Part shown: positions 16,396 to 37,994 of the stretch, piece by piece | Layout: every line of letters begins with the position of its first letter | Numbering within the stretch: the stretch's first letter is position 1 | DNA from: Metallosphaera yellowstonensis MK1 | Lineage (GTDB): Archaea > Thermoproteota > Thermoprotei_A > Sulfolobales > Sulfolobaceae | Length of the DNA stretch: 39,773 nucleotides | Assembly: GCF_000243315.1 (NCBI RefSeq) | Contig: NZ_JH597761.1 | Location: 611,334 to 651,106 of the forward strand | Direction: 5' to 3' | Position numbers and translations under genes: made by a program | Notes under the pieces: model-generated | Told to the model about the DNA's origin: nothing | Database searches by the model: none | Seen by the model: only the letters and a program-made list of their open reading frames with translations

Positions 16396-17640
16396 TTAAG
16401 TCAGCACTGTATCATGAATCTTGCTATTTGCGTTTATGGTCTTATGGGGCCATATCTTGGAGTTCACTATCTCAGTTCCCGCCTCTATGACTACGTCGTC
16501 CCCTATGACGCTCCTGATTATCCTGGCCCCTCCCCTTATCTCCACATGCCTCGCTATGACAGAGTCCTCTATCACAACCCCCTCCCCTATATACGCCCTG
16601 TCCATCACTGCGCTCCTAACTATCCTGGCATTGTTCTTGACCATGGAGAAGTTATCCACTGTGGAGTTCTCCAGGTAGACGTTGTTCCCTATCTGACAGT
16701 GCCTCCCCACGAGGACACTCCCCTCAACCTTGAGCCTGCCCCTCTTGTACTTATTGACTATGACGTTCCTTCTCCTTATGGAGTCTGGGCTAGTCCCTTG
16801 GACGAAGATCCTCTTGCTCTCGTCGACCCTCTTGGCCATAATGTCCCTCTCCTCCAGCGTGGAGAGCAGGGTCTTCATGGCGTCCAAGTACCTCTCTGGC
16901 GTCCCGACGTCGAACCAGAGGGACTCGGTGACGTAGCCGTACACCGGGTAACCCTTGGAGATGAGGTAGGGTATTACGTCCTTCCCAAAGTCCATCCTAC
17001 CCTCCTCCCTCATCATGCTCACCTCCTCACTAGCGAACACGTCCCTTATCTTGGGGGAGAGGACGTATATCCCGGTGTTTATCAGGTTGGAGGGAGCCTC
17101 TCCTTCCTTGGGTTTCTCCACGAACCTCTTGATCCTCATGTCGTCCCCCAACTCAGCTACACCGAACTCTCTCACGTCGTGCCACTTCCTGAGGACTATG
17201 GTCATGAGTGCCCCCCTCTCCAGGTGGTAGTTCACTAAGTCCTTGAGGTCTACCTTGATTAGGTTGTCCCCTTGTATTACCAGGGTTATGTCCTCTATCC
17301 TGTAGTAGTCCATGTTTATCCTCACCGAGTCCGCGTTTCCGACGCTGTCGACCCTGGGCTGGTACTTGAAGTGTACCCTGGGCTTTATGCCATACCTGGC
17401 GGAGAAGCCTATCCCCTCCTTGAAGGTGTCGAAAAGCGACTTGTAATTTATGTACCCCTTAACTCCGAAGATGAACTCCTTGACCCCCTGCTTGGCCAAC
17501 TCGAGGATAGGGAACTCCAGTAGGGGCCTGTTGAGAAGTCTGACCGTGGCCTTGGACGTCTCCACTGTTAAGGGCCTCATCCTCGTGGCCTCCCCTCCGA
17601 TGGGGATTATGACCTTAACGTCCTCCGGAGACCACTTCAT
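16396..17640 (-). CDS. sugar-1-phosphate nucleotidyltransferase with left-handed beta-helix domain
   Basis: 414 residues. The N-terminal Rossmann-like nucleotidyltransferase domain has the pyrophosphorylase signature [20 protein letters not shown] (13-31, with only a modified GGxATR loop), VIQGDNL (metal Asp), [17 protein letters not shown] and WFDVGTP. From about 290 the protein shows hexapeptide-type repeats ([34 protein letters not shown]). Family members make ADP-, UDP- or GDP-sugars. As first gene of the minus-strand glycogen operon, opposite the glycogen synthase, it is a good candidate for supplying the NDP-glucose donor, but the nucleotide preferred cannot be read from the sequence. 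Start ATG is 34 bp from the divergent GH57 gene. Confidence 0.88.
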
Positions 17641-29887: not shown

Positions 29888-30280
29888 CTATATAGATTTT
29901 ATGAAATCTTCTAGAGAAATAGTGTTTTTCTTTCCTATTAAGTCCTTATCGTTGGACACTAAAATAAGTCCTAAAGATGTAGCAGCATAAAGGTAGGACG
30001 CGTCGTAATAAGTTAAACCTCCTTTCACTGCAGTTTTGATCACTTCTTCAAGAGGAGGGTCTTCTATTACGTTAAATTTTCTCAAAAATTTATGAAAAAA
30101 CATCGCAAGGGCTATAGGGTCTTTAACCTTTTTACGTAGGTAATGCTCCTTCCATATTGCATTACCTACCTCGTAGAATGTCAGACTAAGCACGTGAATT
30201 TTGCTAGGGTCTATCTTGTCTACATAGTTTAAGAGTGGATACAGAGCTGAGGCGTCGAAAAGAAACCTCTTATCTTTCAT
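29888..30280 (-). CDS. vapC: VapC-type PIN-domain toxin
   Basis: About 130 residues from ATG at 30280. First acidic residue in FLFDASALYPLL, second around TFYEVGNAIWKEHY, third in GLTYYDASYLYAA and fourth in ILVSNDKDLIG: the PIN nuclease quartet. VapC toxins cleave RNA. A longer frame up to 30319 lacks PIN sequence at its start, so I use the ATG that overlaps the vapB stop by 11 bp. Pairs with the antitoxin immediately upstream. Confidence 0.88.
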   Translation of the reverse strand: MKDKRFLFDASALYPLLNYVDKIDPSKIHVLSLTFYEVGNAIWKEHYLRKKVKDPIALAMFFHKFLRKFNVIEDPPLEEVIKTAVKGGLTYYDASYLYAATSLGLILVSNDKDLIGKKNTISLEDFIKSI

Positions 30281-30494
30281 TTCTACTCTCCCTAATATCT
30301 GTTGTCCAATCATCTTCACTTACGTCTGACATTAATTCTTTAATTTTCATTGCTATGTCTTTAATTTCTTCCTTTTCTTTTTCCCTTATCGCATCCTCCA
30401 AAGCCTTTTCCACTACTTTTCTAATGTTGATTCCTAATTCCTCAGCTCTCTTCTTTATCTCCTTTGCTACTCTCACGCTAATTACGTCAGACAT
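30270..30494 (-). CDS. vapB: VapB-type antitoxin (ribbon-helix-helix-like)
   Basis: 74 residues: SDVISVRVAKEIKKRAEELG INIRKVV is the beta strand plus two helices of a CopG/RHH-like DNA-binding domain, followed by a long charged helix (EKALEDAIREKEKEEIKDIA) and the acidic tail SEDDWTTDIRES that would cover the toxin. Overlaps vapC. The 6-bp inverted repeat at 30503-30519 just upstream is a likely operator. Confidence 0.85.
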   Translation of the reverse strand: MSDVISVRVAKEIKKRAEELGINIRKVVEKALEDAIREKEKEEIKDIAMKIKELMSDVSEDDWTTDIRESRNER

Positions 30495-32237: not shown

Positions 32238-32775
32238 ACAGCAGTTATGGGAATCTTAGGGAGGTAATACGAAGAAGTCGGTATTAGCGAGAAGTTTTTA
32301 TTTTTCGACGTCTTCCTGCTCAAAAGATGCTGAACGGAAAGGGATCGATCGAACTCGCTAGGGAGAGGCTGGTCAAGGCGGTCAACCAGGTTCTGGGCGT
32401 GGTCAGGAGGAACGGGAGGAGCAGGAAGGTCGGGTTGGCGCTAGCCCTCACGGTCCTGGTAGGTGGGAGGGCCAGGGTGAGGAACGCGGCCGAGACGTTC
32501 GGGTTGGAACGTGAACTGATGGGGCGTTGGGAGAACTCGACGACGCGTGGGGACTGGAGGTCCTGTCAGGCTGGTGAAGGGTCAGATCGTCATCGTAGAC
32601 GACACCGTGGACCACGACGCTCTGGGTAGACGTGAGCCCATGAGAACTACTGGACCTACTGCCACACCCACGGGAGATTCGAGAGGGTTAAGATCCTCAC
32701 GGTCGTGATGGTGGACCTCAAGCAGGACTTTCACGGTTTCCCTTACGCCGTGAGGAAGATGTTGGACTTGTGAGG
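32238..32775. mobile_element. 5' half of the ACAGCAG-type IS
   Basis: Begins ACAGCAGTTATGGGAATC and carries the first half of the transposase; similarity stops at about 32775 near VRKMLDL. The other terminus is missing. Confidence 0.7.
32327..32774 (+). pseudogene. transposase of the ACAGCAG-type IS, N-terminal part, frameshifted
   Basis: MLNGKGSIELARERLVKAVN, then GRSRKVGLALALTVLVGG and FGLERELMGRWENS. Frame changes near 32555 lead to VKGQIVIVDDTVDHD (first catalytic Asp of a DDE enzyme) and later YWTYCHTHGRFERVKIL, VVMVDLKQDFHGFPYAVRKM (second Asp region). The protein belongs to a DDE family that I cannot name with confidence. Non-functional fragment. Confidence 0.7.
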
Positions 32776-33190: not shown

Positions 33191-33583
33191 TTAAACTACT
33201 TCTACTCCGTGTCTTTTAGCGAGGCTCTTCAGGGCCTTGTCCTTAGTAGCTAAAGGTAATTTATTTTCAATAGTGTGAGCTAAAATCACAACATCGTTAT
33301 ATCTGGATAAGCTTAACCTTTCTTTGGTCAATATTTCTAAAGCTATACCTATAATGTTATCATTATCGCACAGGATTTTAGTCCTCTCATTAGCCACGTA
33401 ACTTTTTATGTACTCTACGTTGTCGATGTTGTTAGCTCTTAGAAACCAAGTAAACTCATGGATAACTAAGGAGGGGATCAGCCATTCCTCAAGGCTGTCT
33501 AATAATTCCCCGGCTTCTTTATGAAACTCCGAATCTTCTACTAGGTCATAGATTAAGATGTTTGTGTCAATGACTGCTTTCAT
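33191..33583 (-). CDS. vapC: VapC-type PIN-domain toxin, second pair
   Basis: 130 residues, typical full-length PIN protein: AVIDTNILIYDL (Asp 6), IPSLVIHEFTWFLR (Glu), RYNDVVILAHTIEN (Asp, about 94), PLATKDKALKSLA (Asp, about 115). RNA-cleaving toxin by family. The start overlaps the upstream antitoxin gene by 17 bp. Not closely alike the VapC at 29888; the two pairs have different antitoxin folds. Confidence 0.9.
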   Translation of the reverse strand: MKAVIDTNILIYDLVEDSEFHKEAGELLDSLEEWLIPSLVIHEFTWFLRANNIDNVEYIKSYVANERTKILCDNDNIIGIALEILTKERLSLSRYNDVVILAHTIENKLPLATKDKALKSLAKRHGVEVV

Positions 33584-33972: not shown

Positions 33973-35113
33973 ACAGCAGTTATGGGACTTTAACGTAACT
34001 TAATGATTTTCATCAACCTGGGCGGTCCACCTAAATGACGTTCAACGAACCTGAGGAACGCCTCCACGCTCCTCAGGTTCAGCTCCCGGCTCCCTGACGA
34101 CGTTAGTCATGATGGTGAAGATCGTGAGGTACCCCTGAAGCCTCTCCCTCCTCCAGAACGAGGAGTCCTCCAGCCCAGGGCCTTGACGTCCCTTGGAGGT
34201 CCTCGATCTCCCACACAACAGGCCTCCTCCTCGCTGAGCGAGAGGTCGTTGGTGTAGAGGTACCTGACGTGTGTCCCGGAGTCACGTTTACGTTCCCGGA
34301 CTAGCAATTTTACCGTAATGGGTCGGCCTCCCAGGGTCAGGTCGGCGTAGTAGACTCCGGGGGGTATCCCACTCGGAGGTGTCCCTCCTCGAGGGTCCCC
34401 TGGGCCGACTCGACCCTGAGCTCGGTTGGACTTGAGCTCAGACACCACGTTGTCCGTCACGAGCTTCTCGGACAGTACTGGAGTCGAAGACTACCCTGGA
34501 CACGCGGAAGTACCCCTTGAGCACGTCCAACATCTGGCTATCTCGATCTTGGTCTTGAACTCGTTGACCATCCCCAAGTCCAACATCTTCCTCACGGCGT
34601 AGGGGAAACCATGAACGTCCTGCCCGAGATCCGCTATGGCGACCGTGAGGAGCTTGGCCCTCTCGAACCTCCCGTGGGTGTGGCAGTAGGTCCAGTAGTT
34701 CTCAGGGGCTCACGTCCTTCCCCCTGGAGTATTGTGGTTCACGGTGTCGTCCACGATGACGACCTGACCCTTCACCGGTCTGACAGGACCTCCAGTCCCT
34801 CCACGTGCCGTCGAGTTCTCCCAACGCCCCATCAGTTCACGTTCCAACCCGAACGTCTCGGCCGCGTTCCTCACCCTGGCCCTCCCACCTACCAGGACCG
34901 TGAGGGCTAGCGCCAACCCGACCTTCCTGCTCCTCCCGTTCCTCCTGACCACGCCCAGAACCTGGTTGACCGCCTTGACCAGCCTCTCCCTAGCGAGTTC
35001 GATCGATCCCTTTCCGTTCAGCATCTTTTGAGCAGGAAGACGTCGAAAAATAAAAACTTCTCGCTAATACCGACTTCCCCGTATTACCTCCCTAAGATTC
35101 CCATAACTGCTGC
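33973..35113 (-). mobile_element. full-length ACAGCAG-type IS (about 1.14 kb)
   Basis: Both ends present: ACAGCAGTTATGGGACTTTA at 33973 and CCCATAACTGCTG ending at about 35112. This is the only copy in the window with both termini and the whole transposase region. No target duplication is obvious. It interrupts the 3' part of the secreted-protein gene at 35114. Confidence 0.8.
33990..35024 (-). pseudogene. transposase of the ACAGCAG-type IS, several frameshifts
   Basis: From ATG 35024: MLNGKGSIELARERLVKAVN to FGLERELMGRWENS, then VKGQVVIVDDTVNHN, YWTYCHTHGRF, VRKMLDLGMVNEFKTKIEIA, GVYYADLTLGGRPITVKLLV, RYLYTNDLSLSEEE, and a tail homologous to FVERHLGGPPxLMKIxKLR with stop at 33990. Frames change at about 34720, 34480 and 34150. 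Assembled length is about 340 residues. DDE-type by the VIVDDT motif; family not resolved. Confidence 0.75.
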
Positions 35114-35851
35114 ACCGTATATGGACCCACCGTTGTCCTCCACTAGGTACGTGGACGTCACTGTGGCCAAATTTCGGCCTTGAACCCTGTCGACGTTTGG
35201 TACACTGGTGAGACCTTGTACACATGCAGTGTCCCGTTGAACCAGTATACGTTCACCGTGTTAGGTAGATCGAAGGTGAAACCAATCATTACCTGTTGGC
35301 CTAAACCGATTTGGCCGACAGACCAGTTTCCCCAGACGACACCATTATAATATTTAGGAAGATATGGTAGTTAGTCATAGATCCGCGTTCTAGGACTACC
35401 ACAATACCGTATGGCCCATACGGACTGGCCGGTTGGTAGTTCCCCAGAAAAGTGGCGGGGTATAGAACACCATACCCTATGCACATCCGCCGTAGTTTCC
35501 TGAGGTACCACTGGGGACTACGATTGTCGTATTCAGCCCGATGACTGACGTCGAGAGCGATACCGAGGCGTTGTTATCCAGATAGCCCTGATTTGGCAAA
35601 ACTTCCAATTGGTTCGTATTCACGACTGCGACGACGCATGGATCAAACCATGCGAGACTGGCCCAATTGGAGCCAGGCGCTGTGACCACTTGGGTGGTCG
35701 TAGTGGTCGTGGACGAACCACCAAACGTGAAAGAGGTAGAGTATGTGAACCATGAAAAGCCTCCCCCGCCTCCGAACCTATAGAAAGCCGAAACCGGTAT
35801 TAGCAATGAAAGTAGGACTAGAGTCATTATTATTAGTATACGCCACATCAT
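35114..35851 (-). pseudogene. secreted protein with signal peptide, frameshifted and truncated by the IS
   Basis: Starts MMWRILIIMTLVLLSLLIPV (hydrophobic signal), then a Gly-rich and Thr-rich linker (FGGGGGF, SSTTTTTTQVV). After NYGG the frame shifts at about 35486 (YGVLYPATFLGNYQPASPYG), again near 35345 (YYNGVVWGNWSVGQIGLGQQ, FTFDLPNTVNVYWFNGTLHV), and ends at the IS border as TYLVEDNGGSIYG. The style, with many Asn/Thr sites and beta strands, is that of extracellular Sulfolobales proteins such as thermopsin relatives or lectin-like peptidases. Function unknown. It belongs with the next two minus-strand genes. Confidence 0.6.
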
Positions 35852-35877
35852 TGAGTGAGGAAAAAGAGAACGACTTT

Positions 35878-36099
35878 TTAAATGGCCCGTCTAAAAATCT
35901 TCCTCAATTCAGGCGAGAGGTAAAAAGTTAATGCGGTGGAAATGATGCCCGCCGCAATGAGGAGCTCCGGTAAATAGTGCACATACCACGGAGGAGGTGG
36001 TTGAATTGCTTCAAGCGGGGGGATTGTAACATTGAAGAAGGTTGTATTAGGGGGGATTGTAATATTGAAGGCTGTAGTATTGGTAACATTGAGTATCAT
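35878..36099 (-). CDS. small sequon-rich single-pass membrane protein
   Basis: 73 residues. The N-terminal half has five N-x-S/T sites in about 25 residues (NVT, NTT, NIT, NTT, NVT), then a proline run PPPPWYVHYLPE, a single transmembrane helix (LLIAAGIISTALTFYL) and a basic tail (RKIFRRAI). This topology puts the Asn-rich segment outside the cell, where Sulfolobales N-glycosylate heavily, and the Arg/Lys tail inside. It could anchor or shield the neighbouring secreted proteins. No family known. Confidence 0.65.
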   Translation of the reverse strand: MILNVTNTTAFNITIPPNTTFFNVTIPPLEAIQPPPPWYVHYLPELLIAAGIISTALTFYLSPELRKIFRRAI

Positions 36100-36138
36100 A
36101 ACAAAAACAAAGGGGAAAGAATTAAAAAAAGCTTTTCC

Positions 36139-37050
36139 TTATAGTCCGTACGTTGTTCCTATCCCCGGGTAGGTGAATTGGTATAGGTAACTCCACCCGC
36201 CATAACTACTATAGGGCCATCCGTTGTATATTTCGGCATAAGCACTGTTGTAAGCTGAGGACGAACCGAGTTGGTAGACGTCCGCGTATATTGTGCCCGA
36301 GGGATTAGTACTAGGCCCAGTATGTTCGTTCCCATCTTCGCCGATATATGCGAAATTGAAGTTTATCATTCCGCCGGACAGATATGGTAACTCATAACGG
36401 AATCCGGAGGATGATTCAGGGGCCTCGACTACGCTCATGGCCGAACCTGTCAGAGTCCACGGTATAGATTCATATACTTTCGTAGTCCAAGTTGCCCCAT
36501 TGGAGTAAAGTACGAAAAACTGAGCCATTGCGGTTCCGTTTTCAAAATTACCTAAGGACACATCAAGACGAGTTACCGTCCCCTCGGCGGGTATATAGTT
36601 TTCATAAGCGTTCAGTTCTTGTCCGTTGTCAAAAGTAAATACGAAATACTGAACGTAGACATTACTCGGTGTTACATATACATAATATCCGGCCTGTACG
36701 AAGCTAGACCCTTCTGAACCAGATGAAGCGCCGGCACCGTATCCGATTTGTGCGGGGCTAAGCCCAACCCATATGGCCACCACGTCAGGATAGAGATAGC
36801 CCGGTTGATAAATGTAAGCTAGCGTAAGATTTTTACGTAAATGTAGTCACTGGCCGTCAGTACTAGGCCCCCAGTAGTTTGTAACCCATGACCTCCACTC
36901 GACAGAGTAAGCCACGCCGGCCCAATTCTCTGAGTTAACGGTATTTACTATCTGGTTCGCCCCTATTTGGCTTGCCGTTATTGCTGATGTGTTTAGAGAG
37001 ATTAGAGCTAGCAAAAATAGCGAAACGCCAATTATTAGGTACTTCCTCAT
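36139..37050 (-). pseudogene. probable glutamic peptidase (G1/eqolisin-like), secreted, with an in-frame TGA
   Basis: Signal peptide MRKYLIIGVSLFLLALISLN, then NSENWAGVAYSVEW (the NWAG hallmark). After WGPSTDGQ an in-frame TGA (36847-36849) occurs; the frame continues unchanged LAYIYQPGYLYPDVVAIWVG, then SSFVQAGYYVYV (candidate catalytic Gln), LNAYENYIPAEGTVTRLDVS, and GSAMSVVEAPESSS (candidate catalytic Glu), ending PGIGTTYGL. This order matches acid-active G1 peptidases. Total about 303 codons. The stop may be a recent mutation, a sequencing error, or read-through; translation could also restart at GTG 36783 without a signal peptide. Confidence 0.55.
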
Positions 37051-37085
37051 TTGCCGGAACGAGAAAATCAGACTTTAAAAAGGGC

Positions 37086-37445
37086 TTAAAACAGTGGGCT
37101 GTAGTTGTAGAGAAAGATAAACGTGTTATTGACATCTACTAGTATCGACAACGCGATAAACGGTAACAATGAGAGCCACTTATACTTACCTACCTTCAAG
37201 ACGTCGAAAAGCCTTGTAAACCAGTAGACCCCGGTGAAAAACAGAAGTTTTATCGATATTGCCATTAGAAGTGCTAAGCGAAACGAGATGATACCTTCAT
37301 TATTGGCGTAGTATATCCAGATAAAGAAGTTCTCTTCATTCAAGATATTTCCTTCATGCCAATACACGGCTGATATGACTAGGTCATAAACGTTGAGTAG
37401 GATGAAGAGAACCCATACTATTTTAAGGATTCTCATCGACATCAC
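37086..37445 (-). CDS. three- to four-helix membrane protein
   Basis: 119 residues. Hydrophobic segments: ILKIVWVLFILLNVYDLVIS, LALLMAISIKLLFFTGVYWF, LSLLPFIALSILVDVNNTFI. The LNVYDLVISAVY ... VDVNN pattern recalls small DUF5658-like membrane proteins, a weak match. GTG start follows the stop of the zinc-finger frame by no gap. Its function is unknown; location upstream of the secreted-protein genes may be incidental. Confidence 0.6.
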   Translation of the reverse strand: MMSMRILKIVWVLFILLNVYDLVISAVYWHEGNILNEENFFIWIYYANNEGIISFRLALLMAISIKLLFFTGVYWFTRLFDVLKVGKYKWLSLLPFIALSILVDVNNTFIFLYNYSPLF

Positions 37446-37700
37446 CTAGCCAACACAGATGTTATGTTTTTTGCAAACATGATCTAGGGTCGAATCCGTA
37501 TTAGCGAACTCCTTCCGACAGACGGGGCAGGTCGTCGTATGCTCAGTATAACGTGTATGTCGTTTCAGAGACGGATTACTTCCGCGGAATGTTAATGATT
37601 TTCTTTCAATTCCACCTTTGGTAGGATAGTTAACAGTCTTTAAGTGGCCACATGTGATAAATACAAGTAGGCTGAAGGTATGAGTAATAAAGTTTTCACA
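37446..37700 (-). pseudogene. C2H2 zinc-finger protein fragment
   Basis: Open minus-strand frame ending HTTTCPVCRKEFANTDSTLD, HVCKKHNICVG, with stop at 37446-37448. CPVC...H-x3-C/H is a C2H2-type finger of the sort common in Sulfolobales viruses and plasmids. No ATG, GTG or TTG occurs in frame back to the IS border at 37709, so the 5' end was probably removed by that insertion. Not visible in start-based ORF calling. Confidence 0.4.
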
Positions 37701-37709
37701 TTTGGTGAT

Positions 37710-37994
37710 ACAGCAGTTATGGGAACCTTAGGGAGGTAATACGGGGAAGTCGGTATTGGCGAGAAGTTTTTCCGACGTCGTCCCGCTGAAAAGGTGCGGA
37801 AAGGGACAGATCGAGTTGGCTAGGGAGAGGCTTAAGGGCCACCTCACGACCTTCACCATCAACAACGTCGTCAGGGAGCTGGGAGCTTAACCTGGGGAGC
37901 GTGGAGGCGTTCCTCAGGTTCTCTAGAGCCGTTTAGGCTGACCACCCAGGCTGATGAAAATCTTTAAGTTACGTTAAAGTCCCATAACTGCTGT
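37710..37994. mobile_element. internally deleted copy (285 bp) of the ACAGCAG-type IS
   Basis: ACAGCAGTTATGGGAACCTT at the left, GTCCCATAACTGCTGT at the right. Keeps about the first 100 bp and last 170 bp of the element. It is inserted in, or adjoins, an IS256-like remnant at 37995. Confidence 0.8.

Follow-up and report, generated by a model that had tools for sequence, protein, structure and literature searches.

The gene at positions 36139 to 37050 on the minus strand of the window (the whole 39,773-nt stretch of DNA that was analysed) is very probably a pseudogenised secreted-toxin gene of a fusellovirus (SSV-type), lying within a provirus fragment; both its identity and its decay were read from the assembly sequence alone. 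The toxin is of the SSV11 p29 type. A full-length match to PHROG 11028 (function unannotated) was obtained with an E-value of 9e-107. When the intact paralogue from the same genome was compared by tblastn with 50,697 phage records, 29 were matched; all 29 were Sulfolobus spindle-shaped viruses, and SSV11 was the best match among them. The sole IMG/VR relative found in a first scan lay on a 15.9-kb contig with fusellovirus gene order, including VP4, VP1, and VP3. By full-length family match (PHROG 11028 and the 29 SSV records), the frame is no chance ORF, and the gene belongs with the Gene 1 secreted toxins of fuselloviruses.

The provirus fragment and the intact copy

The gene order around the toxin agreed with this assignment. 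The toxin lies between a B129 gene (together with a small membrane gene) and VP4, which is the position of Gene 1 in fuselloviruses. The decayed provirus fragment spans about 2.4 kb (about 35139-37595) between transposase remnants, and all of its genes are on the minus strand. It comprises the C-terminal remnant of a B129-like zinc-finger gene (37449-37595), a 119-aa membrane protein of PHROG 8567 that is also a viral neighbour of the toxin (37086-37445), the toxin itself, a small TM gene 3' of the toxin (35887-36135), and the frameshifted and truncated start of the gene for the end-filament protein VP4 (35139-35851). Protein similarity in the VP4 remnant spans 35206-35755, and at the DNA level the intact copy is matched as far as about 35139; besides its truncation, this remnant carries three further frameshifting indels. 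A TATA-like box (37074-37081, minus strand) precedes the toxin ATG, is the same in the intact copy, and corresponds to the position of the SSV T3 promoter according to the SSV1 annotation. The sequence-only reading had assigned the gene to a peptidase of the archaeon itself; PHROG 11028 and the SSV synteny place it instead in the remnant of a provirus.

An ISC1217-type transposase remnant (34575-35112, minus strand) adjoins the provirus fragment, and another piece of the same element is located at 37711-37832. Many repeated transposase-type fragments were present between 29701 and 39773 (for example at 32239-32770, 34575-35112, and 37822-37994), and this part of the window is a mobile-element graveyard. 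Two PIN-domain proteins, encoded at 33191-33583 and 29888-30319, are likely VapC-type toxins. When the membrane gene at 37086-37445 was compared with its intact copy, nine nonsynonymous and no synonymous changes were counted, a pattern that hints at rapid change of the protein or at relaxed constraint.

A second toxin copy (L002, C19:297261-298181), 78% identical and free of stops, was found on a different contig when the assembly that contains the window (21 contigs, 2.82 Mb) was searched. Both copies lie inside a region of about 2.4 kb with a DNA identity of 87%. Along this duplicated region the identity ranged from 72 to 100% (the ragged end excepted), which suggests recombination. The surroundings of the intact copy (L090/L091, G000:C19 about 292464-306455) measure about 14 kb, are bordered by a tRNA-Tyr gene on either side, contain D244, B129, the toxin, VP4, B78, C166, B115, VP1, VP3, A82, B277, A153, and a DnaA-like gene, and have integrase-like stretches near both ends. 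Judged by gene content, this region is apparently a complete fusellovirus provirus in which the toxin, VP4, VP1, and VP3 are intact.

The in-frame TGA and the decay of the toxin gene

As the sequence-only reading had described, the minus-strand frame from 37050 to 36139 encodes a signal peptide followed by NWAG, IWVG, FVQAG, and VVEAP, in that order, and is interrupted by a single in-frame TGA at 36847-36849. A signal-peptide region of some 24 residues (36979-37050, minus strand) is kept in viral relatives; its extent was taken from alignment and DNA comparison, not from a computed cleavage site. The sequence-only reading had also taken the frame to be undisturbed before and after the TGA. Indels were called relative to the intact paralogue in a DNA alignment. 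The window copy has an extra base near 36865, GGGGGCC(T)AGTACTG, and lacks a base near 36834-36835, ACGT-AAAAATC. The approximately 31 nt between these indels (36835-36865, minus strand) are nearly the same as in the intact copy, but in frame +1 only. Three-frame translation of the shifted stretch gave VLTASDYIYVK in frame +1, compared with VLSASDYIYVG in the intact copy. The conserved residues around the TGA therefore do not form one continuous frame with the rest, since they lie in frame +1 between the indels, and the TGA itself comes from an out-of-frame reading of AGT GAC (Ser-Asp). Recoding is unsupported, because read-through would put in about 11 wrong residues. As far as the DNA alignment can be read, a pair of compensating one-base indels produced the TGA incidentally, and the gene is a pseudogene rather than a case of recoding.

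An internal GTG at 36783 had been proposed as a second start that would give a product without a signal peptide. This GTG is the Val codon of VAIWVG, and such a product is not expected to be active, because published relatives need the signal peptide for toxicity (PMC13431529, PMC8628083). The window copy is predicted to yield no more than a 67-residue stub, or else a product lacking the signal peptide, and to be inactive. Compared outside the shifted stretch, the two toxin copies had a dN/dS of 0.68, with changes distributed over every codon position; comparisons with viral genes gave 0.23-0.47.

We also considered whether the stop and the indels are sequencing or assembly errors in a gene that is intact. 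The missing base is at a run of five A, and the two indels cancel out, as errors might. However, the extra T in GGCCTAG does not alter the length of a homopolymer, and the adjoining VP4 remnant carries three more frameshifts and a truncation, so that an error is improbable. Marginally less credible still is a cellular, acid-active G1 peptidase gene that was killed by one recent TGA or is made by its read-through. Motif order, Gln-Glu spacing, and an open frame on either side of the TGA speak for such a gene; against it stand the viral family and synteny, the two compensating indels with conserved residues in frame +1 (so that read-through gives the wrong residues noted above), and a genome without any PF01828 match. 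The choice between recent inactivation and a bypassed stop thus falls away, with the TGA inside a short out-of-frame segment and the neighbouring VP4 broken as well. The pseudogenised viral toxin gene illustrates how a pair of compensating indels in a dead provirus can look like stop-codon read-through.

Broken or partial toxin relatives were also present in other genomes of the host family, so toxin genes commonly decay after integration. Defects were seen in viral records too. In the free virus SSV Ragged Hills (L035), this toxin gene is frameshifted as well, and the annotated ORF C247 is therefore truncated; the same kind of defect has been noted for SSV8 (PMC8628083). For an A291-type toxin (L080, L107, L108), the annotation in one or more SSV records, MK054210 among them, begins at an internal start and so omits the signal peptide; the full open frame is present.

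Comparison with G1 glutamic peptidases

Archaeal G1 peptidases were collected from 398 genomes of the phylum, and 25 were aligned. True G1 peptidases (PF01828; L011, L012, L048-L072) occurred in 33 of the 398 sampled genomes; none of the 33 came from the family to which the window belongs, and the window's own genome had no PF01828 match. In searches of Pfam, the PDB, and single sequences, the toxin matched no G1 protein and neither a Pfam family nor a solved structure. In an hhalign alignment, its Gln and Glu nevertheless fell at positions homologous to the catalytic Q and E of G1 peptidases, and the motifs NW[AS]G, W[AV]G, Q[AT]G, and A-x4-E-[RA]-P were common to toxins and archaeal G1 peptidases. 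The motifs had been said to have the right spacing for a G1 peptidase, and this was borne out for Gln to Glu only, a distance of 90 residues in the window toxin and 84-96 in the toxins, compared with 82-89 in 24 archaeal G1 proteins. The other intervals were longer than in archaeal G1 peptidases, with 25 residues from Trp to Gln (compared with 13-15) and 51 from NWAG to WVG (compared with 35-40). Eqolisins keep E69 and W67, and both residues are important (PMC6154417). The corresponding WYE motif was not found in the toxins, which have [YWL]F[VL] or similar at this place, whereas archaeal G1 peptidases have WYE or WFE.

When profiles of trimmed proteins were compared, the toxin-G1 score was 30, against a mean near 15 and a maximum of 24 for shuffled controls. 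VP4 controls scored 15-16 against the G1 profile, equal to background, and the toxin-G1 score dropped to background when the four motifs were masked. The corresponding E-value, near 0.001, is that of one comparison and would not hold in a blind search of all families. A probability of 94% given by full-length profile comparison was discarded, as it was inflated by aligned signal peptides and fell to 16% after trimming. The motifs behind the G1-like label are thus real and conserved in relatives, but the similarity that they carry is modest, though above shuffled controls, and is confined to them; from these profiles, membership in G1 is unproven.

Two AlphaFold models built from thin alignments (3 and 6 sequences) were all-beta and of low confidence (mean pLDDT 45 and 51). 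For the second of these low-confidence models, the best PDB matches by Foldseek were ConA-like lectins and GH16 enzymes, with E-values above 0.005. Neither SGP nor AGP was among the 50 listed Foldseek matches of the models. G1 peptidases belong to the ConA-like sandwich class. The lectin and GH16 matches, coming from a predicted model, would be compatible with the G1 fold class and are no evidence for G1.

The Gln/Glu pair, toxin function, and known systems

The Gln119, Glu209, and Trp94 of the window frame were invariant in alignment A2 (9 sequences). On the minus strand, Gln119 (36694-36696) and Glu209 (36424-36426) are the candidate catalytic residues, Trp94 (36769-36771) is that of IWVG, and NWAG (residues 42-45) is encoded at 36916-36927. 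The A291-type relatives L080, L108, and L082 also keep both Gln and Glu. When these three were added to A2, about a dozen positions remained invariant in the mature part, including Y80, W95, Q120, A121, A203, E208, and P210 (SSV11 numbering). Across the dyad-bearing toxins, which represent two divergent branches, Q120 and E208 were the sole invariant polar residues besides Tyr80 and Trp95. The dyad was absent from the SSV1 A291, SSV9 B310, SSV2, SSV7, SSV10, SSV-Lassen, and SSV13 alleles, two of which (A291 and B310) are toxic despite its absence. In a tree, the dyad appeared on each of the two main branches, and the supported branches require at least two changes; the pattern fits, but does not prove, an ancestral dyad with several losses. 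One genome carries SSV11-type and A291-type alleles (L021 and L082) within 2.6 kb (G177:C1 1777740-1780318), each with its Gln/Glu pair.

The activity of intact relatives has been established by others. Supernatants from SSV11 p29 expressed alone inhibit uninfected S. islandicus; SSV9 B310 gives the same inhibition, for which its N-terminal region with the signal peptide is required (PMC8628083). SSV1 A291, encoded at the same locus, is required for halos and dispensable for virion production, and halos are lost when its signal-peptide cleavage site is changed (PMC13431529). In term searches of the two reports (PMC8628083, PMC13431529), no peptidase mechanism for the toxin was found. We propose that an infected cell would export the intact toxin by means of its signal peptide, that Gln120 and Glu208 of the mature protein (SSV11 numbering) would form a glutamic-peptidase-like dyad at low pH, and that this dyad would cut surface proteins of uninfected neighbours. 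Whether the intact toxin acts through such a dyad, with the peptidase step drawn from residue conservation, seems to us evenly balanced. We would also give about equal weight for and against the broader proposal that the killer toxins of fuselloviruses form, or derive from, a divergent lineage of G1-like glutamic peptidases. If it is true, these are acid proteases of viruses, secreted by an infected archaeon to inhibit uninfected neighbours, and several alleles have lost the dyad. Conservation points to Gln120 and Glu208 of the proven toxin SSV11 p29, two residues that correspond to the dyad of glutamic peptidases, and the idea is therefore testable by one pair of point mutants in the existing assay. 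The motif call is a useful lead to the working of the live toxins, not proof of G1.

A quite plausible alternative, to which we accord a little less than even weight, is that the intact toxins are ConA-like proteins that bind or cut glycans, the Gln/Glu pair being structural or serving other chemistry. The A291 study (July 2026) describes a glucanase-like predicted fold and names no substrate (PMC13431529). The weak Foldseek matches to lectins and GH16 enzymes point the same way, as does the toxicity of dyad-less alleles, whereas the retention of the dyad in two divergent branches, within G1-like motif contexts, argues against a glycan-directed protein. The fold does not decide between glycan and peptidase, because G1 peptidases are, as a matter of general knowledge, ConA-like sandwiches too. 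That the toxin-family protein matures the major capsid protein VP1, which is cleaved by an unknown protease (PMC5748691), is the least probable explanation and was set aside, given that virions look normal in SSV1 without A291 (PMC13431529), that A291 and several other alleles have no dyad, and that the protein is secreted.

Compared with known systems, the toxins resemble G1 peptidases (the eqolisins of PF01828, the archaeal L011 and L012, SGP, and AGP) in having a signal peptide, four motifs in the same order, and a similar Q-E distance; they differ in lacking E69 of WYE and a Pfam match, and in their longer inserts before Trp and Gln. The SSV1 A291 and SSV9 B310 toxins share with the window gene the locus 5' of VP4, a signal peptide, and a length of about 300 aa, but are very divergent and lack the Gln/Glu dyad. 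The closest known counterpart is SSV11 p29 (MK054237; PMC8628083), equated here, by position and size, with a 303-codon gene (16657-17568 of MK054237). It is 60% identical and has the same signal peptide, dyad, motifs, and gene neighbours; SSV11 p29 is intact and viral, whereas the window copy is frameshifted and lies in a provirus fragment.
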